A stretch of DNA of 59,481 bases from an uncultured Spirochaetaceae bacterium. GTDB taxonomy: Bacteria > Spirochaetota > Spirochaetia > Sphaerochaetales > Sphaerochaetaceae. Under the pieces are notes generated by a model. It was given only the letters and a program-made list of their open reading frames with translations, ran no database searches and had not been told where the DNA came from. The stretch covers positions 1-59,481 of the forward strand of contig CALXOH010000035.1 of the NCBI GenBank assembly GCA_944389975.1, in the 5' to 3' direction. Positions 24,385-32,161 of the stretch are shown here, one piece after another (positions within the stretch are counted from its first letter, which is position 1; each line of letters opens with the position of its first letter). Made by a program: the position numbers and the translations under genes.

Positions 24385-24666
24385 ATGGGAACTTTGTTGA
24401 CCAATTTGCCTAAGGAGACGCTTGTCGCGCAGCTCCAGGATGGCGGAATTCTTCTTGTTCTTGGTATGGGAACCGTATTTGTATTCCTCGTCATACTCAT
24501 ATATGCAACAAAGCTTATGAGCAAGATCGTTGCGCGCATACAGCCGGCAGAGCAGGCTGCGCCCGCACAGAAGAGGTCTACCAACACTTCCACTACAAGC
24601 GCAAAGAAGAGTGACGACGCAGCAATTGCAGCAGCAATCGCAGCAGCTTATGACAAGCAGAACTAA
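24385..24666 (+). CDS. oadG: oxaloacetate decarboxylase gamma subunit
   Basis: A 93-residue small subunit with one membrane helix (about residues 22-43, GGILLVLGMGTVFVFLVILIY) and an Ala/Lys-rich cytoplasmic tail ending in AIAAAIAAAYDKQN, the usual form of OadG, which anchors the carboxyltransferase subunit to the membrane pump. AAGGA precedes the ATG. It is first in the oadGAB operon, 12 nt before oadA. Low sequence complexity makes the family call depend partly on position. Confidence 0.88.
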   Translation: MGTLLTNLPKETLVAQLQDGGILLVLGMGTVFVFLVILIYATKLMSKIVARIQPAEQAAPAQKRSTNTSTTSAKKSDDAAIAAAIAAAYDKQN

Positions 24667-24678
24667 AAGGGGACTAGA

Positions 24679-26811
24679 ATGAGTAAGAAGAAAATCAACT
24701 TCATGTGTACAGCGTTCAGGGACGGCTTCCAGTCGGTCTATGGCGCAAGGGTATTCACAAAAGATTTCATGCCAGCTGTAGCCGCAGCTCGCGAAGCAGG
24801 AATCAAGCACTTTGAAGCAGGTGGCGGCGCACGCTTCCAGGCACTTTATTTCTATACGAACGAAGATGCATTCGAGATGATGGACGAGTTCAGGCGCGTT
24901 GCAGGCCCGGATGCAAACCTCCAGACACTTGCAAGGGGAGTCAACGTAGTAGGACTCGATTCCCAGCCCAGGGATATGATCCAGCTCCATGCAAAGCTCT
25001 TCAAGAAGCACGGCATGACGACGATCAGGAACTTTGACGCACTCAACGACGTCAACAACCTCATCGACTCAGGTAAGGCAATCCACGACGCAGGCCTCAG
25101 GCACGAAGTCACGGTTACGATGATGAGCCTTCCCGAGGGAGTCGTAGGAGCACACGATCCTGACTTCTACGAGAAGATACTCCGCCAGATCCTCGATGCA
25201 GGCATCCCGTACGATTCAGTATGTTTCAAGGATGCATCAGGCACGAGCACACCGCACAACGTGTACGAGACGATCAAGAGGGCAAGGAAGCTCCTCGGAC
25301 CCAACATGAACATCGTATTCCACTCACATGAGACTGCAGGTGTTTCAATCCAGCAGTACATGAGCGCAATCGAAGCTGGTGCAACCCAGGTCGACCTCTC
25401 GCTCGCACCTTGCTCTGGTGGAACATGTCAGCCGGACGTGATCACGATGTGGCACGCACTCAGGGGAACCGATTACACACTCGATGTAGATATCGCAAAG
25501 GTACAGGAAGCTGAAAGGATATTCGAAGACTGCATGAAGGACTACTTCCTCCCACCGGAGGCAACGATGGTCAACCCGAACATCCCGTTCTTCCCACTCC
25601 CGGGCGGCGCACTTACTGCAAACACACAGATGCTCAGGGACAACGGCTTGATGGACAAGTACCCGTTGATCGTAGAGGCTATGGGAGAGACGGTCGCAAA
25701 GGGTGGTTTCGGAACATCGGTAACACCTGTTTCCCAGTTCTACTTCCAGCAGGCATTCAACAACGTGATGTTCGGACCTTGGAAGAAGTTCGCTGAAGGC
25801 TATGGCAAGATGGTTCTCGGCTACTTCGGAAAAACACCGGTTGCACCGGATCCGGAAGTCGTAAAGCTTGCAAGCGAACAGCTCCACCTCGAGCCGACGA
25901 CTGAGAAGTGCGTGGACATCAACGATCGCGATCCGAACAAGGGAAGGGCAGCGGCAGAGAAGATGCTCAAGGACGCAAACCTCCCGATCACGGACGAGAA
26001 CGTATTCATCGCAGCTGCATGTAAAGAGAAGGGTATCCTCTACCTCACAGGCAAAGCACATGTAAACGGCGTCAGGAAGATCAGCGAAGAGAAAGAGAAG
26101 AAGGCCGAGGCAAAGAAGAACACAACCGGCGAATACACAGTCACAGTCAACGGCGTAAGCTATGGCGTCAAGCTCGAAAAGGACAGCGCTGTCGTAAATG
26201 GCACGAAGTATCCTCTTTCGATCGAGGATGGAATCAAAGCATCCGCCCAGACAAAGACGGTGAAGAAGGTTGTGAAGAGCGCAAGTGCAGGAAGCACTGA
26301 AGTAAAAGCTCCGATGCCGGGCCTCGTACTCCGCTTTGCAGTCAAGGAAGGGGATGAAGTCAAGAAGAACGACCTTCTGATGGTCATGGAAGCCATGAAG
26401 ATGGAGAACGAGATCTACGCTCCATGCGATGGCGTTGTCGGACAGATCCTGGTATCCCAGGGCCAGCAGCTCCAGGCAAGCGATGTATTGATGACGATCT
26501 CCGGTTCCGGCGAGGCTGTTGAGGAAGTCGTGGAGGAAGTTGTCGAAGAGGCAGCAGCTCCCGCAGCCGAGGAGAGCGCGCCAGCTCAGTCCGGAGAGGG
26601 CACGGAAGTCAATGCTCCGATGCCGGGCCTCGTACTCCGCTTTGCAGTCAAAGTCGGTGACAAGGTAAATCAGAACGACCTGTTGATGGTAATGGAAGCC
26701 ATGAAGATGGAGAACGAGATCTACGCTCCTGTTGCAGGAACGGTTACTGAGATCTGCGTAAACCAGGGCGACCAGCTCCAGTCAGGTGACAAGCTGATGA
26801 TCATTGGCTGA
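24679..26811 (+). CDS. oadA: oxaloacetate decarboxylase alpha subunit with two biotinyl domains
   Basis: The carboxyltransferase subunit transfers CO2 from oxaloacetate to biotin, giving pyruvate. The 710-residue protein has an N-terminal TIM barrel with FRDGFQS near residue 13, the carbamylated-lysine motif VCFKDASG near 181 and the metal-binding HSHETAG near 215. After a conserved post-barrel domain come two biotinyl domains, each with MEAMKMEN, about 102 residues apart (biotin lysines near 573 and 675), joined by an acidic Val/Glu/Ala linker. Relatives normally carry one. The repeated DNA is nearly identical over long blocks (see the repeat entry). Shine-Dalgarno AGGGGA precedes the ATG. 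Confidence 0.95.
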   Translation: MSKKKINFMCTAFRDGFQSVYGARVFTKDFMPAVAAAREAGIKHFEAGGGARFQALYFYTNEDAFEMMDEFRRVAGPDANLQTLARGVNVVGLDSQPRDMIQLHAKLFKKHGMTTIRNFDALNDVNNLIDSGKAIHDAGLRHEVTVTMMSLPEGVVGAHDPDFYEKILRQILDAGIPYDSVCFKDASGTSTPHNVYETIKRARKLLGPNMNIVFHSHETAGVSIQQYMSAIEAGATQVDLSLAPCSGGTCQPDVITMWHALRGTDYTLDVDIAKVQEAERIFEDCMKDYFLPPEATMVNPNIPFFPLPGGALTANTQMLRDNGLMDKYPLIVEAMGETVAKGGFGTSVTPVSQFYFQQAFNNVMFGPWKKFAEGYGKMVLGYFGKTPVAPDPEVVKLASEQLHLEPTTEKCVDINDRDPNKGRAAAEKMLKDANLPITDENVFIAAACKEKGILYLTGKAHVNGVRKISEEKEKKAEAKKNTTGEYTVTVNGVSYGVKLEKDSAVVNGTKYPLSIEDGIKASAQTKTVKKVVKSASAGSTEVKAPMPGLVLRFAVKEGDEVKKNDLLMVMEAMKMENEIYAPCDGVVGQILVSQGQQLQASDVLMTISGSGEAVEEVVEEVVEEAAAPAAEESAPAQSGEGTEVNAPMPGLVLRFAVKVGDKVNQNDLLMVMEAMKMENEIYAPVAGTVTEICVNQGDQLQSGDKLMIIG
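26293..26808 (+). repeat. tandem duplication of the biotinyl-domain coding sequence, period 306 bp
   Basis: A block starting GCTCCGATGCCGGGCCTCGT at 26308 recurs exactly at 26614, and ATGGAAGCCATGAAGATGGA at 26386 recurs at 26692; both offsets are 306 bp (102 codons). Synonymous positions are conserved in these blocks, pointing to recent duplication or gene conversion. Confidence 0.9.
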
Positions 26812-26823
26812 TAGGAGAATAAA

Positions 26824-28038
26824 ATGGAAGCTATTATAGACGGATTTAAGAACCTTGCCTTGACCACGGGGATTGCGGGATTCATGGGAATCACGGGTGA
26901 CGGTGGAATTGGCAATGCACTCATGATTCTCGTTGGATTCGTCCTCTTGTATCTTGCAGTAAAGAAGGGTTTCGAGCCGCTTCTTCTCATCCCGATCGGA
27001 ATGGGTTGTATCCTCTCGAACATTCCTCTCGCATACATTGCAGGCATCGATCCATCAAACAATGCCCCTGGATTCATCAAGGTACTCTTCACGGGTATCG
27101 ACCTCGGACTCTTCCCTGTCTTGATCTTCATGGGCGTAGGTGCGATGACTGACTTCGGTCCGCTTATCGCAAACCCGAAGACCCTGCTATTGGGAGCAGC
27201 TGCACAGCTTGGAATCTTCACTGCCCTTATCGGAGCGCTGGTTCTCTCCTTCATTCCGGGAATCAACTTCGACCTGGCAGTTGCAGGCAGCATCGGAATC
27301 ATCGGAGGCGCAGACGGCCCGACGGCAATCTATGTAACAAGCCGACTTGCACCTGACTACCTCGGATCGATTGCAGTCGCCGCGTATTCGTACATGGCAC
27401 TCGTTCCGATCATCCAGCCGCCGATCATGAAGGCTTTGACTACTGAAAGCGAAAGAAAGATAAAGATGGAACAGCTCAGGCCTGTCTCCAAGCTCGAGAA
27501 GATCGTCTTCCCGATCATGGTAATCACGCTTTGTGCAATCCTTCTTCCTTCTGCATGTCCTTTGATCGGTGCACTTATGTTCGGTAACTTCGCACGCGAA
27601 TGCGGCGTGATCAACAGGCTTTCTGACACGATGCAGAATGCGCTGATGAACATCGTAACGATCTTCCTCGGACTCTCAGTCGGTTCGAAGATGGCTGCAG
27701 AGAGCTTCTTGAATCTCGAGACTCTCGGAATCCTACTCTTGGGAATGATTGCATTCGGAGTTGGTACAGCTGGTGGTGTTCTTCTTGGAAAGCTCATGAA
27801 CAAGCTCGATCCGAAGCACCCACTCAATCCGCTCATCGGATCAGCTGGCGTATCTGCAGTTCCTATGGCAGCCCGTGTTTCGAGCAAGGTCGGACAGGAA
27901 GCAGATCCTCAGAACTTCCTCCTGATGCATGCCATGGGACCGAACGTATCCGGAGTCATCGGATCAGCGGTGGCGGCAGGTGTTCTCATTTCGACAATCC
28001 CGAACATGATGAGCACGATTGCAGCTGCTGCAATCTGA
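26824..28038 (+). CDS. oadB: oxaloacetate decarboxylase beta subunit, Na+ pump
   Basis: The integral membrane subunit decarboxylates carboxybiotin and exports Na+. At 404 residues it has about ten membrane segments and the diagnostic motif [15 protein letters not shown] near residue 157; a catalytic Asp lies in the GGADGPT loop, with a second conserved membrane region including [10 protein letters not shown] near 253. Shine-Dalgarno TAGGAG lies before the ATG at 26824, 12 nt after oadA. The operon ends at the strong terminator at 28056. Confidence 0.95.
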
Positions 28039-29605: not shown

Positions 29606-32161
29606 ATGCACTTCAACATCAATGGACAACCGATAGAGACAACACAAGATAAAAAGCTGCTTGAATTCCTGCGTGAGGACATGAACCTCACAGGGACAAA
29701 GGATGGATGTGCAGAGGGAGCATGCGGCACATGCACCGTCATTGTAAACGGGATAGCGAAGAAAGCGTGTGTCGTAAAGCTATCCCAGCTTGAAGGCAAA
29801 AGCGTCACTACGATCGAAGGCCTCAATGAAAGGGAAAAGGAAGTGTACGCATATTCCTTTGCGCGCGCAGGGGCAGTCCAGTGCGGATTCTGCACACCCG
29901 GCATGATAATGGCGGCGAAGGCCCTGCTCGATTCAAACAAGAGCCCAACAAGGGAGGATGTGAAGAAAGCGATCAGGGGAAACCTATGCAGGTGCACAGG
30001 CTATGTGAAGATCGAAAATGCAATCCTCCTTGCATCACGCATATTCAATGGTCAGGAGAGCATTGGAAATGAAAGTGAAGCGGGAAACATCGGGGATGGC
30101 ATAATCCGCATCGACGCGGATGAGAAAGCGCTCGGGAAGGGTATATTCACGGATGACATCCGGATAGAAGGAATGGCTTATGTCAGAGCGCTCAGGACAC
30201 CCTACCCCAAAGCTTACATAAGAAAGATTGATACAAGCGCACTGGACGGCGACCCGAGGGTCCTGGGGATAATCAGGAAAGAGGATGTCCCATTCAACAT
30301 GCACGGACACATAACGCTCGACTGGCCGGTACTCTACGGAGAGGGGGATACGACTTCGTACATCGGAGATGCAATCCTTCTCATCGTCGCAAAAAGAGAG
30401 GAAGACCTTGAGGAGTTGAAGGCGCTTGTGAAAGTCGATGCTGATGAACTAGATGGTGTTTTCACTCCGGAAGATGCACTCAAAGATGAAAAGATCGTGC
30501 ATTACTGGGAGAAGAAGAACCTTTACAGGGAAGAAAAGCTTCAGAGGGGAGAGATTCGGAAAGCGTTCGTGGAAGCTGACTATGTTTTAAAGCGAACGTA
30601 CTCCACTCCGCCGACAGAGCATGCGTTCATGGAAAGGGAATGTGCAATCGCAATCCCCGAGGGAAATGGCGTGCACCTATATACGTCCGGACAGAGCATA
30701 TACGACGACAGAATGGAGTGTGCCCGCGTATTGGGGCTTGATGAGAATGACGTGAGGGTGACATCCGCTCTCGTCGGAGGTGGCTTCGGAGGAAAGGAGG
30801 ACATGTCGGTGCAACACCATGCGGCACTTGCCTGTTACATACTGAAGCGCCCTGTGAAGATGAAACTCACCCGTCAGGAGAGTCTCATGGTACATCCCAA
30901 AAGGCACCCGATGGTTATGAGCCTCGAGCTTGCGATGAGAAAGGACGGGAAGATACTCGCTTTGAAGGAAGACATACTTGCAGATACGGGAGCATATGCA
31001 TCCCTCGGAGGCCCTGTGCTTCAGAGGGCATGTACCCACGCAGGAGGCCCCTACTCTTTTGACGCGATAGAAATACGGGGGCGCGCTGTTTATACGAACA
31101 ACATCCCGAACGGCGCATTCCGTGGCTTCGGAGTGACACAGTCGTGCTTTGCAATCGAATCTGCGCTCGATGAGGCCGCAGCAGACCTGGGAATCGATCC
31201 GTTCGACCTAAGGAAGAAGAACATAGTACACCCCGGCGATGTGCTTCCAAACGGGCAGATCGCGGGGGATGACACTGCAATAGAAGAGTGCATGGATGCT
31301 GTAGAAGATGAGTACAGGAAAGCGAAATACAAGGGCATTGCTCTAGGGATGAAGAACGCGGGGATAGGCATGGGCGTACCCGACACGGGACGTGCAATCC
31401 TTTCACTAAGAGATGGAAAGATACATATACGTACAAGCGCTGCATGTATGGGGCAAGGGCTGAAGACGATGGCACTCCAGGTTGCAATCGAAACGCTTTC
31501 CCTTCCACTCTCTTCATTCATGGTGGACGAACCAGATACCCTATACACTCCGAACTCCGGAACATCTACAGCCAGCAGACAGACGCAGTTCACCGGGGAG
31601 GCTGTGAGAAGGGCCGCAGAGGAAATGAGGAAAGCGCTCGAAGAGAACAGTCTTGAAAGTCTCGAAGGAAAGGAATTCTATGGAGAGTATTCTCCGAAGA
31701 CCGATCCTCTGGGATCGAAGAAAGAGCACCCCGTTAGCCACGTTGCATACTCATACTCGGCGCAGCTTGCAATCCTTGGCGATGATGGGAAAGTCGAAAA
31801 GATCGTTGCATCCGCAGATGCCGGAACTGTGATAAACCCACTCTCGATCGAAGGGCAGATGGAAGGCGGAATCGTAACGGGGATGGGATTTGCACTCACT
31901 GAGGATTTCAAGGAAGAGAAAGGAAGGATAAAGCAGCGCTTCGGCACGCTCGGGCTATTAAGAAGCACAGATATCCCGGAAATCGAAGTGAAGATGGTGC
32001 ACGGCAAGAGCAAAGTGGAAGGTGCGTACGGCGCGAAGGGAATCGGAGAGCTCGCTGCAATCCCTACAGCCCCTGCAATCAGAAACGCATATTTCCACTA
32101 CGACGGAAAGAAGCGATACTCCCTTCCATTGGAGGATACCCCGTACTCGAGAAAGAGATAA
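29606..32161 (+). CDS. fused molybdenum hydroxylase, selenium-dependent xanthine dehydrogenase type
   Basis: 851 residues combining two subunits that are separate in many relatives. Residues 1-150 form the [2Fe-2S] part: CAEGACGTC near 32, then CGFCTPG near 92 and NLCRCTGY near 125. Residues from about 165 form the large molybdopterin domain, with GGGFGGKEDMS near 391 and GAFRGFG near 503, and AYGAKGIGELAAIP near the end. There is no FAD domain. This architecture and length fit the selenium-dependent xanthine dehydrogenase family of purine-fermenting anaerobes, in which Se is a labile cofactor, not selenocysteine. No maturation genes lie nearby. It probably hydroxylates xanthine or another purine. 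Confidence 0.85.
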   Translation: MHFNINGQPIETTQDKKLLEFLREDMNLTGTKDGCAEGACGTCTVIVNGIAKKACVVKLSQLEGKSVTTIEGLNEREKEVYAYSFARAGAVQCGFCTPGMIMAAKALLDSNKSPTREDVKKAIRGNLCRCTGYVKIENAILLASRIFNGQESIGNESEAGNIGDGIIRIDADEKALGKGIFTDDIRIEGMAYVRALRTPYPKAYIRKIDTSALDGDPRVLGIIRKEDVPFNMHGHITLDWPVLYGEGDTTSYIGDAILLIVAKREEDLEELKALVKVDADELDGVFTPEDALKDEKIVHYWEKKNLYREEKLQRGEIRKAFVEADYVLKRTYSTPPTEHAFMERECAIAIPEGNGVHLYTSGQSIYDDRMECARVLGLDENDVRVTSALVGGGFGGKEDMSVQHHAALACYILKRPVKMKLTRQESLMVHPKRHPMVMSLELAMRKDGKILALKEDILADTGAYASLGGPVLQRACTHAGGPYSFDAIEIRGRAVYTNNIPNGAFRGFGVTQSCFAIESALDEAAADLGIDPFDLRKKNIVHPGDVLPNGQIAGDDTAIEECMDAVEDEYRKAKYKGIALGMKNAGIGMGVPDTGRAILSLRDGKIHIRTSAACMGQGLKTMALQVAIETLSLPLSSFMVDEPDTLYTPNSGTSTASRQTQFTGEAVRRAAEEMRKALEENSLESLEGKEFYGEYSPKTDPLGSKKEHPVSHVAYSYSAQLAILGDDGKVEKIVASADAGTVINPLSIEGQMEGGIVTGMGFALTEDFKEEKGRIKQRFGTLGLLRSTDIPEIEVKMVHGKSKVEGAYGAKGIGELAAIPTAPAIRNAYFHYDGKKRYSLPLEDTPYSRKR

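Follow-up and report, generated by a model that had tools for sequence, protein, structure and literature searches.

The Na+-translocating oxaloacetate decarboxylases (OAD) of Klebsiella, Salmonella, and Vibrio have an alpha subunit, OadA, with a carboxyltransferase of the fold seen in 2NX9, an association-like domain, and a C-terminal biotinyl domain, and the gamma and beta genes lie on either side. The coupling of carboxybiotin decarboxylation to Na+ export is established for OAD (PMC7274780), and PMC7274780 and PMC7145394 describe sodium-pump decarboxylases in which each alpha chain has a single biotin arm. The glutaconyl-CoA decarboxylase of Clostridium symbiosum has two biotin carriers, GcdC1 and GcdC2, that differ slightly and have Ala/Pro-rich linkers (PMC7145394). 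Among other swinging-arm enzymes, the pyruvate dehydrogenase component E2p of Escherichia coli has three lipoyl domains that are 73% identical and are described as redundant (PMC8421416).

Here, we analyzed an OadA-type gene in a stretch of 59,481 nucleotides (the window) from an uncultured gut spirochaete of the genus "Candidatus Ornithospirochaeta." It resembles the Klebsiella, Salmonella, and Vibrio genes in domain composition, fold, and gene neighborhood, but those enzymes have one biotinyl domain, while OadA of the window genus has two or three. Like the GcdC1/GcdC2 system, it provides two biotin carriers per pump complex, although GcdC1 and GcdC2 are separate subunits and the window OadA has tandem domains in a single chain. 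E2p shares with it tandem barrel arms of the same fold, flexible linkers, and a variable domain number; however, E2p carries lipoate, whereas the window OadA is predicted to carry biotin, with a membrane Na+ pump as the acceptor, and in the window genus and its sister genus each domain is demonstrably split into a homogenized and a position-specific part. We found no report of tandem biotinyl domains in a sodium-pump decarboxylase in the open-access literature searched, which is weak evidence that they are unreported.

The OadGAB locus and its two biotinyl domains

Three genes, in the order OadG, OadA, and OadB, occupy positions 24385 to 28038, all on the forward strand:

24385-24666, + strand: OadG-type gamma subunit, 93 amino acids (PF04277, 73.9 bits, cut-off 27; TIGR01195, 61.5 bits, cut-off 36.05)
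24679-26811, + strand: OadA-type alpha subunit, 710 amino acids, with carboxyltransferase, association domain, and two biotinyl domains (open reading frame; PF02436; PF00364 in two stretches; relatives 2NX9, 5KS8, and 1U5J)
26131-26232, + strand: association-domain-like stretch, about residues 485 to 518, four predicted strands (secondary structure of the model; named by analogy with OadA as described in PMC7274780)
26824-28038, + strand: OadB-type beta subunit, carboxybiotin decarboxylase and Na+ pump, 404 amino acids (PF03977, 521.8 bits, cut-off 31.6; TIGR01109, 538.1 bits, cut-off 190.6)

The alpha subunit has a carboxyltransferase of the HMGL/PYC_OADA type (PF02436, 100.1 bits, cut-off 27; PF00682, 29.7 bits, barely above the cut-off of 29), which resembles pyruvate carboxylase, transcarboxylase 5S, and the Vibrio OadA carboxyltransferase 2NX9 in fold and sequence. 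PF00364 matches its C-terminal region in two stretches, each with the motif EAMKM, and the flanking gamma and beta genes are those of a sodium-pump decarboxylase. Compared with the Klebsiella, Salmonella, and Vibrio enzymes, the carboxyltransferase is of a divergent lineage: against the oadA equivalog TIGR01108, it reached 364.3 bits, below the cut-off of 756.5. Because this score is so far under the cut-off, we call the subunit OadA-type rather than canonical OadA. We infer from the subunits and the fold that oxaloacetate would be the substrate and that Na+ would be extruded. Tyr57 (positions 24847 to 24849), invariant across 28 aligned relatives, is aligned with an Arg in both pyruvate carboxylase 5KS8 and transcarboxylase 5S. 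This Arg binds the keto acid, and therefore substrate handling in the Tyr57-bearing lineage may differ. Close downstream, at 29606-32161, an 851-residue open reading frame looks by eye like a protein of the xanthine dehydrogenase type in which 2Fe-2S and molybdenum-hydroxylase parts are fused.

The C-terminal part of OadA was divided as follows, with positions within a domain counted from its predicted biotinyl lysine:

26296-26496, + strand: first biotinyl domain, residues 540 to 606 (domain profile, 121 bits; PF00364; separate beta barrel in the model)
26296-26427, + strand: homogenized N part of domain 1, Lys-34 to Lys+9 (site-pattern test over relatives)
26308-26345, + strand: exact block 1, first copy, 38 nt, equal to 26614-26651
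26386-26423, + strand: exact block 2, first copy, 38 nt, equal to 26692-26729
26398-26400, + strand: predicted biotinyl-lysine codon of domain 1, K574, in EAMKM
26428-26493, + strand: position-specific C part of domain 1, Lys+10 to Lys+31 (site patterns, trees)
26497-26601, + strand: interdomain linker, Glu-rich (29% E+D), predicted disordered (pLDDT below 50 at residues 611 to 639)
26602-26802, + strand: second (last) biotinyl domain, residues 642 to 708 (domain profile, 120 bits; PF00364; separate barrel in the model)
26614-26651, + strand: exact block 1, second copy, 38 nt
26692-26729, + strand: exact block 2, second copy, 38 nt
26704-26706, + strand: predicted biotinyl-lysine codon of domain 2, K676, in EAMKM
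26734-26799, + strand: position-specific C part of domain 2 (site patterns, trees)

The tandem domains reported in the initial annotation are present, as are the two exact blocks that it named (26308 vs 26614 and 26386 vs 26692), both at an offset of exactly 306 nt. Its 102-codon unit is correct as a period, although only the domain, about 69 codons, is repeated, and a linker of about 34 residues fills the rest. The description "near-identical" suits the blocks only, given that from 26293 to 26499 the copies share 157 of the 207 nt and 51 of the 70 residues. In an AlphaFold2 model of OadA (mean pLDDT, 78), the two domains are predicted as separate, intact carrier barrels on one chain, joined by the low-confidence, presumably flexible linker. 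The window shares the Glu-rich character of this linker with some near relatives, but in most relatives it is Ala/Pro-rich (median, 57% A+P, an approximate value, as 7 of the 98 linkers listed are false ones from genus g3, with an extra MKM in the carboxyltransferase).

Domain number among relatives

Judged by its named relatives, the window belongs to the Spirochaetales, with "Candidatus Ornithospirochaeta" among the nearest. A family search over 139 genomes gave matches in 130, and the OadA locus was fetched for 125 of them, the other five (G474, G486, G488, G492, and G507) being cut or tiny fragments. Two intact domains were found in 63 of these 125 rows, one in 34, and three in 14; the 9 rows open at the 3' end and the 5 without an intact domain (G472, G483, G393, G399, and G516) were kept outside the copy-number counts. 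The window genus, in which 4 of 48 genomes lacked an OadA match, had 41 complete tails, 31 with two domains and 10 with three, and 3 further tails cut by contig ends. Its sister genus g12 had 10 tails with two domains and 4 with three (14 complete, 2 further cut). A one-domain OadA was found in none of the 41 and none of the 14 complete tails of these two genera. Twelve non-spirochaete loci (L068 and L072 to L082) had one domain in 11 cases, and the twelfth was cut. OadA frames of about 680 to 720 residues were the rule among the matches listed (184 of 195 genomes matched).

Sequence comparison thus places the origin of the domain pair before that of the genus. The initial annotation had named, as an outcome that would refute it, the same two domains diverged and ancient in all relatives. 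Half of this holds: the pair is ancient, but homogenization of part of each domain is still going on (see below). A recent, independent tandem duplication in the window lineage, proposed earlier on account of the exact 38-nt blocks, is very improbable, and the relatives rule it out for the window: at least two domains are present throughout the genus (41/41 complete tails), diverged sequence flanks the blocks, and first- or last-specific C parts are common to different genomes (93 same-position amino acid patterns against 6 within-genome and 2 crossed in 17 pairs), an identity retained across the window genus and the sister genus.

The chance that the second domain is an artefact of metagenome assembly appears practically negligible. 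The window genome is in 51 contigs, and in the 9 family rows mentioned above, the contig runs out within the tail or ahead of it. Against this, there are 50 differences between the copies in 207 nt, and their longest exact block, 38 nt, is shorter than ordinary reads; dozens of separately assembled relatives agree on the architecture, and the single-contig genomes G358, G402, G422, G367, and G302 have two domains each. Several assemblies of relatives (L032, L035, L037, and L039) stop within the biotinyl tail or immediately ahead of it, a pattern that short-read assembly would produce if it were misled by near-identical copies, and the counts of two-domain relatives may include some in which a nearly identical third domain was collapsed.

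On the carboxyltransferase tree of the family, domain number changes at least 16 times (7 in the window genus, 2 in g12, and 3 in g8), compared with 35 to 46 changes in 30 shufflings of the labels; 16 is the minimum on this quick tree, built from sequences of uneven base composition, with changes in either direction counted together. The middle domain of every three-domain gene (14/14) had a C part of the first type (0.86 to 1.00 of residues, against 0.55 to 0.77 to the last), and in the five three-domain genes compared, the linker preceding the first domain resembled the one preceding the middle domain. Both features fit an unequal exchange inside the N part or a duplication of the first unit, and recent tandem duplication is the likely origin of some third domains. 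In g8, the single domain of G513 could be compared with the pair of G509. Its upstream linker was last-type at 20 of 23 differing sites, and the domain itself was first-type around Lys+9 to Lys+15 (7/7) and last-type at its end (6/8), a mosaic consistent with loss after conversion. No comparably clear mosaic was found in the single domains of G515 and G054. The earlier expectation that recombination would remove one copy is supported in the family, by the changes in number and the G513 mosaic, but no one-domain gene was seen among the 41 complete tails of the genus.

Treponemataceae have another OadA lineage with two tandem biotinyl domains and Ala/Pro-rich linkers, checked by profile in five genomes (G320, G363, G367, G402, and G422); the profile also showed two domains in G302, from another family of the class. 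The Treponemataceae carboxyltransferase is only about 30% identical to that of the window and the domains are of another type (IESMKMELE); this two-domain OadA probably had a separate origin. In the related genus g50, the OadA homologues (G393, G399, and G516, at L169, L176, and L237) end in a domain without MKM, the tails printed have no association-like stretch, and G393 has an MmdA-OadG-like-carrier-OadB cluster elsewhere in the genome. In G472 (L200), the OadA frame stops after 578 residues, the tail reads as frameshifted, and a biotinyl-domain match follows closely in a different frame (C4:64844-65044), through either an assembly error or a recent pseudogene.

Gene conversion in one part of the domain

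In order to judge the DNA identity between the two window copies, we simulated sequences from the gene's own codon usage. The same codon was used at 30 of 45 shared degenerate residues, compared with 26.1 ± 3.0 expected (2,570 of 20,000 simulations as high), and total codon identity was rejected as evidence of conversion in the window, codon bias being enough to yield it. The identical codons are nevertheless clustered in long runs beyond what codon bias gives, which is not chance: the sum of squared run lengths was 310 against a mean of 102.8 (50 of 20,000 simulations as high), and two runs of at least 12 identical codons, a post hoc statistic, occurred in 0 of 20,000. Of 54 genes, 32 had significant run clustering (p ≤ 0.05). 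The DNA match noted in the initial annotation is thus genuine, but the strong codon bias of the gene makes it look more striking than it is.

For the gene conversion suggested earlier from the blocks, support comes from the relatives rather than from the blocks by themselves. In genome pairs having at least two domains, synonymous codons were sorted into patterns shared within the genome, between same positions, or crossed, in bins of synonymous difference in the carboxyltransferase of 0.35 to 0.45 (26 disjoint pairs) and 0.45 to 0.70 (22 pairs). G004, cut at the 5' end, was kept out of site patterns and trees, leaving 54 genomes. In the N part, the patterns were 102:30:18 in the 26 pairs and 101:14:16 in the 22 more distant ones, and 0 of 1,000 codon-usage simulations reached the excess in either bin; synonymous sharing within lineages thus goes beyond codon usage, as gene conversion predicts. 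The C part showed no within-genome excess (14:19:11 and 11:7:7, reached by 706 and 806 of 1,000 simulations), with few informative codons and a boundary at Lys+9/+10 picked after inspection of the sequences. At small divergence, same-position sharing dominated the N part (3:20:2 in 5 pairs; 40:33:13 in 17 pairs), and conversion is therefore slow.

The trees gave a similar division, with N parts grouping by genus and C parts more by position. On the N-part tree, the first/last label changes 15 times and the genus label once, while on the C-part tree, the position label changes 5 times and the genus label 4. Between the window and its nearest relative, G013, the N-part patterns were 5:1:0. Both window copies read GCT CCG..GGC, both G013 copies GCA CCA..GGA, and the related G023 has one variant per copy. 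Given that the copies agree within each of the two genomes and are mixed in G023, the window and G013 lineages seem to have been homogenized separately. In the N-part tree, the first domain of the window is nevertheless closer to the first domain of G013 (path, 0.24) than to its own second (0.54), at nodes without starred support, and conversion in the window is for that reason best described as patchy.

That no conversion took place, and that genome-wide codon preference or parallel selection on the codons or protein contacts of both copies made them alike, is unlikely. Codon bias alone explains total codon identity in the window, and N-part amino acid patterns in distant pairs are also within-genome (86:13:2), as coevolution with a common partner would give. 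However, synonymous sharing exceeds each genome's codon usage, and does so in the N part only; codon preference is disfavored, as it would have affected the C part too. Judged by the site patterns and trees, concerted evolution is restricted to the N part of the domain and is patchy. Short conversion events repeatedly homogenize the strands and the EAMKM hairpin of the N part in the genus and sister genus, and the C part escapes and remains first- or last-specific, perhaps through divergence below the homology length of recombination or through selection for different docking.

Function of the arms and significance

MKM was kept in all 124 profile-detected domains of 55 complete genes from the genus and sister genus. 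Across 18 pairs, dN/dS was 0.078 (N part) and 0.085 (C part) in the first domain, 0.105 and 0.121 in the last, and 0.036 in the carboxyltransferase, values that indicate purifying selection on both parts of both copies. The window genome encodes a BirA-type ligase (TIGR00121, 126.7 bits, cut-off 83.1), and its sole other biotinyl domain is in an AccB-like protein beside accC. Together, MKM conservation, purifying selection, and BirA support two working domains. Our preferred reading, which we hold to be probably right, is an OAD-type sodium-pump alpha subunit with two functional tandem carrier domains, an old array whose N parts undergo conversion and whose domain count shifts. The single BirA-type ligase would biotinylate both lysines, CO2 would pass from the carboxyltransferase to the biotin on each domain, and carboxybiotin would travel on the flexible linker to OadB, where its decarboxylation would be coupled to Na+ export. 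Several arms may serve one complex, as lipoyl domains do in pyruvate dehydrogenase E2, and the faster transfer by two biotins suggested in the initial annotation is plausible by this analogy. Unequal exchange or tandem duplication inserts a middle, first-type domain in some species, with one-domain arrays in relatives.

It is doubtful, though a real possibility, that the extra domain is instead redundant and nearly neutral, duplicated by recombination, with conversion and selection on at least one copy keeping the lysines. Domain number does shift often (the 16 or more changes above), and one domain suffices in the 34 one-domain relatives; yet the second domain is lost in no complete tail of either genus, no domain has lost MKM, and the unhomogenized C part remains under purifying selection in both copies.

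A second OAD_beta gene is present in the window genome (contig C42:2760-3818; L249:2742-3839, - strand; TIGR01109, 393 bits, cut-off 190.6), and in the 8.5 kb fetched around it, none of the open reading frames was recognized as a carboxyltransferase or biotin carrier. Genomes of the window genus usually have two OAD_beta matches. Quite unlikely, in our view, is a division of labor between the arms in which conversion keeps the N part common to fit BirA and the carboxyltransferase and the C parts of the first and last domains dock at different places, e.g., one at each of two beta pumps; given this orphan gene and no free biotin carrier except AccB, OadA could then feed both. At least two OAD_beta matches were found in 14 of 14 three-domain, 52 of 63 two-domain, and also 19 of 34 one-domain genomes, and OAD_beta gene number was rejected as the reason for the second domain; domain number and OAD_beta number could be compared in only 4 independent pairs on supported branches.

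By sequence comparison, the window OadA belongs to a genuine variant of a known enzyme that is old and widespread in spirochaetes and bears a clear signature of partial conversion, and the best reading, by analogy, is an expandable array of swinging arms like the lipoyl domains of pyruvate dehydrogenase. It offers a clean case in which conversion homogenizes one part of a domain and spares the other while the domain count changes repeatedly. Within the family, otherwise similar enzymes occur naturally with one, two, or three arms, and the question of whether more arms are faster is therefore testable with close homologues.
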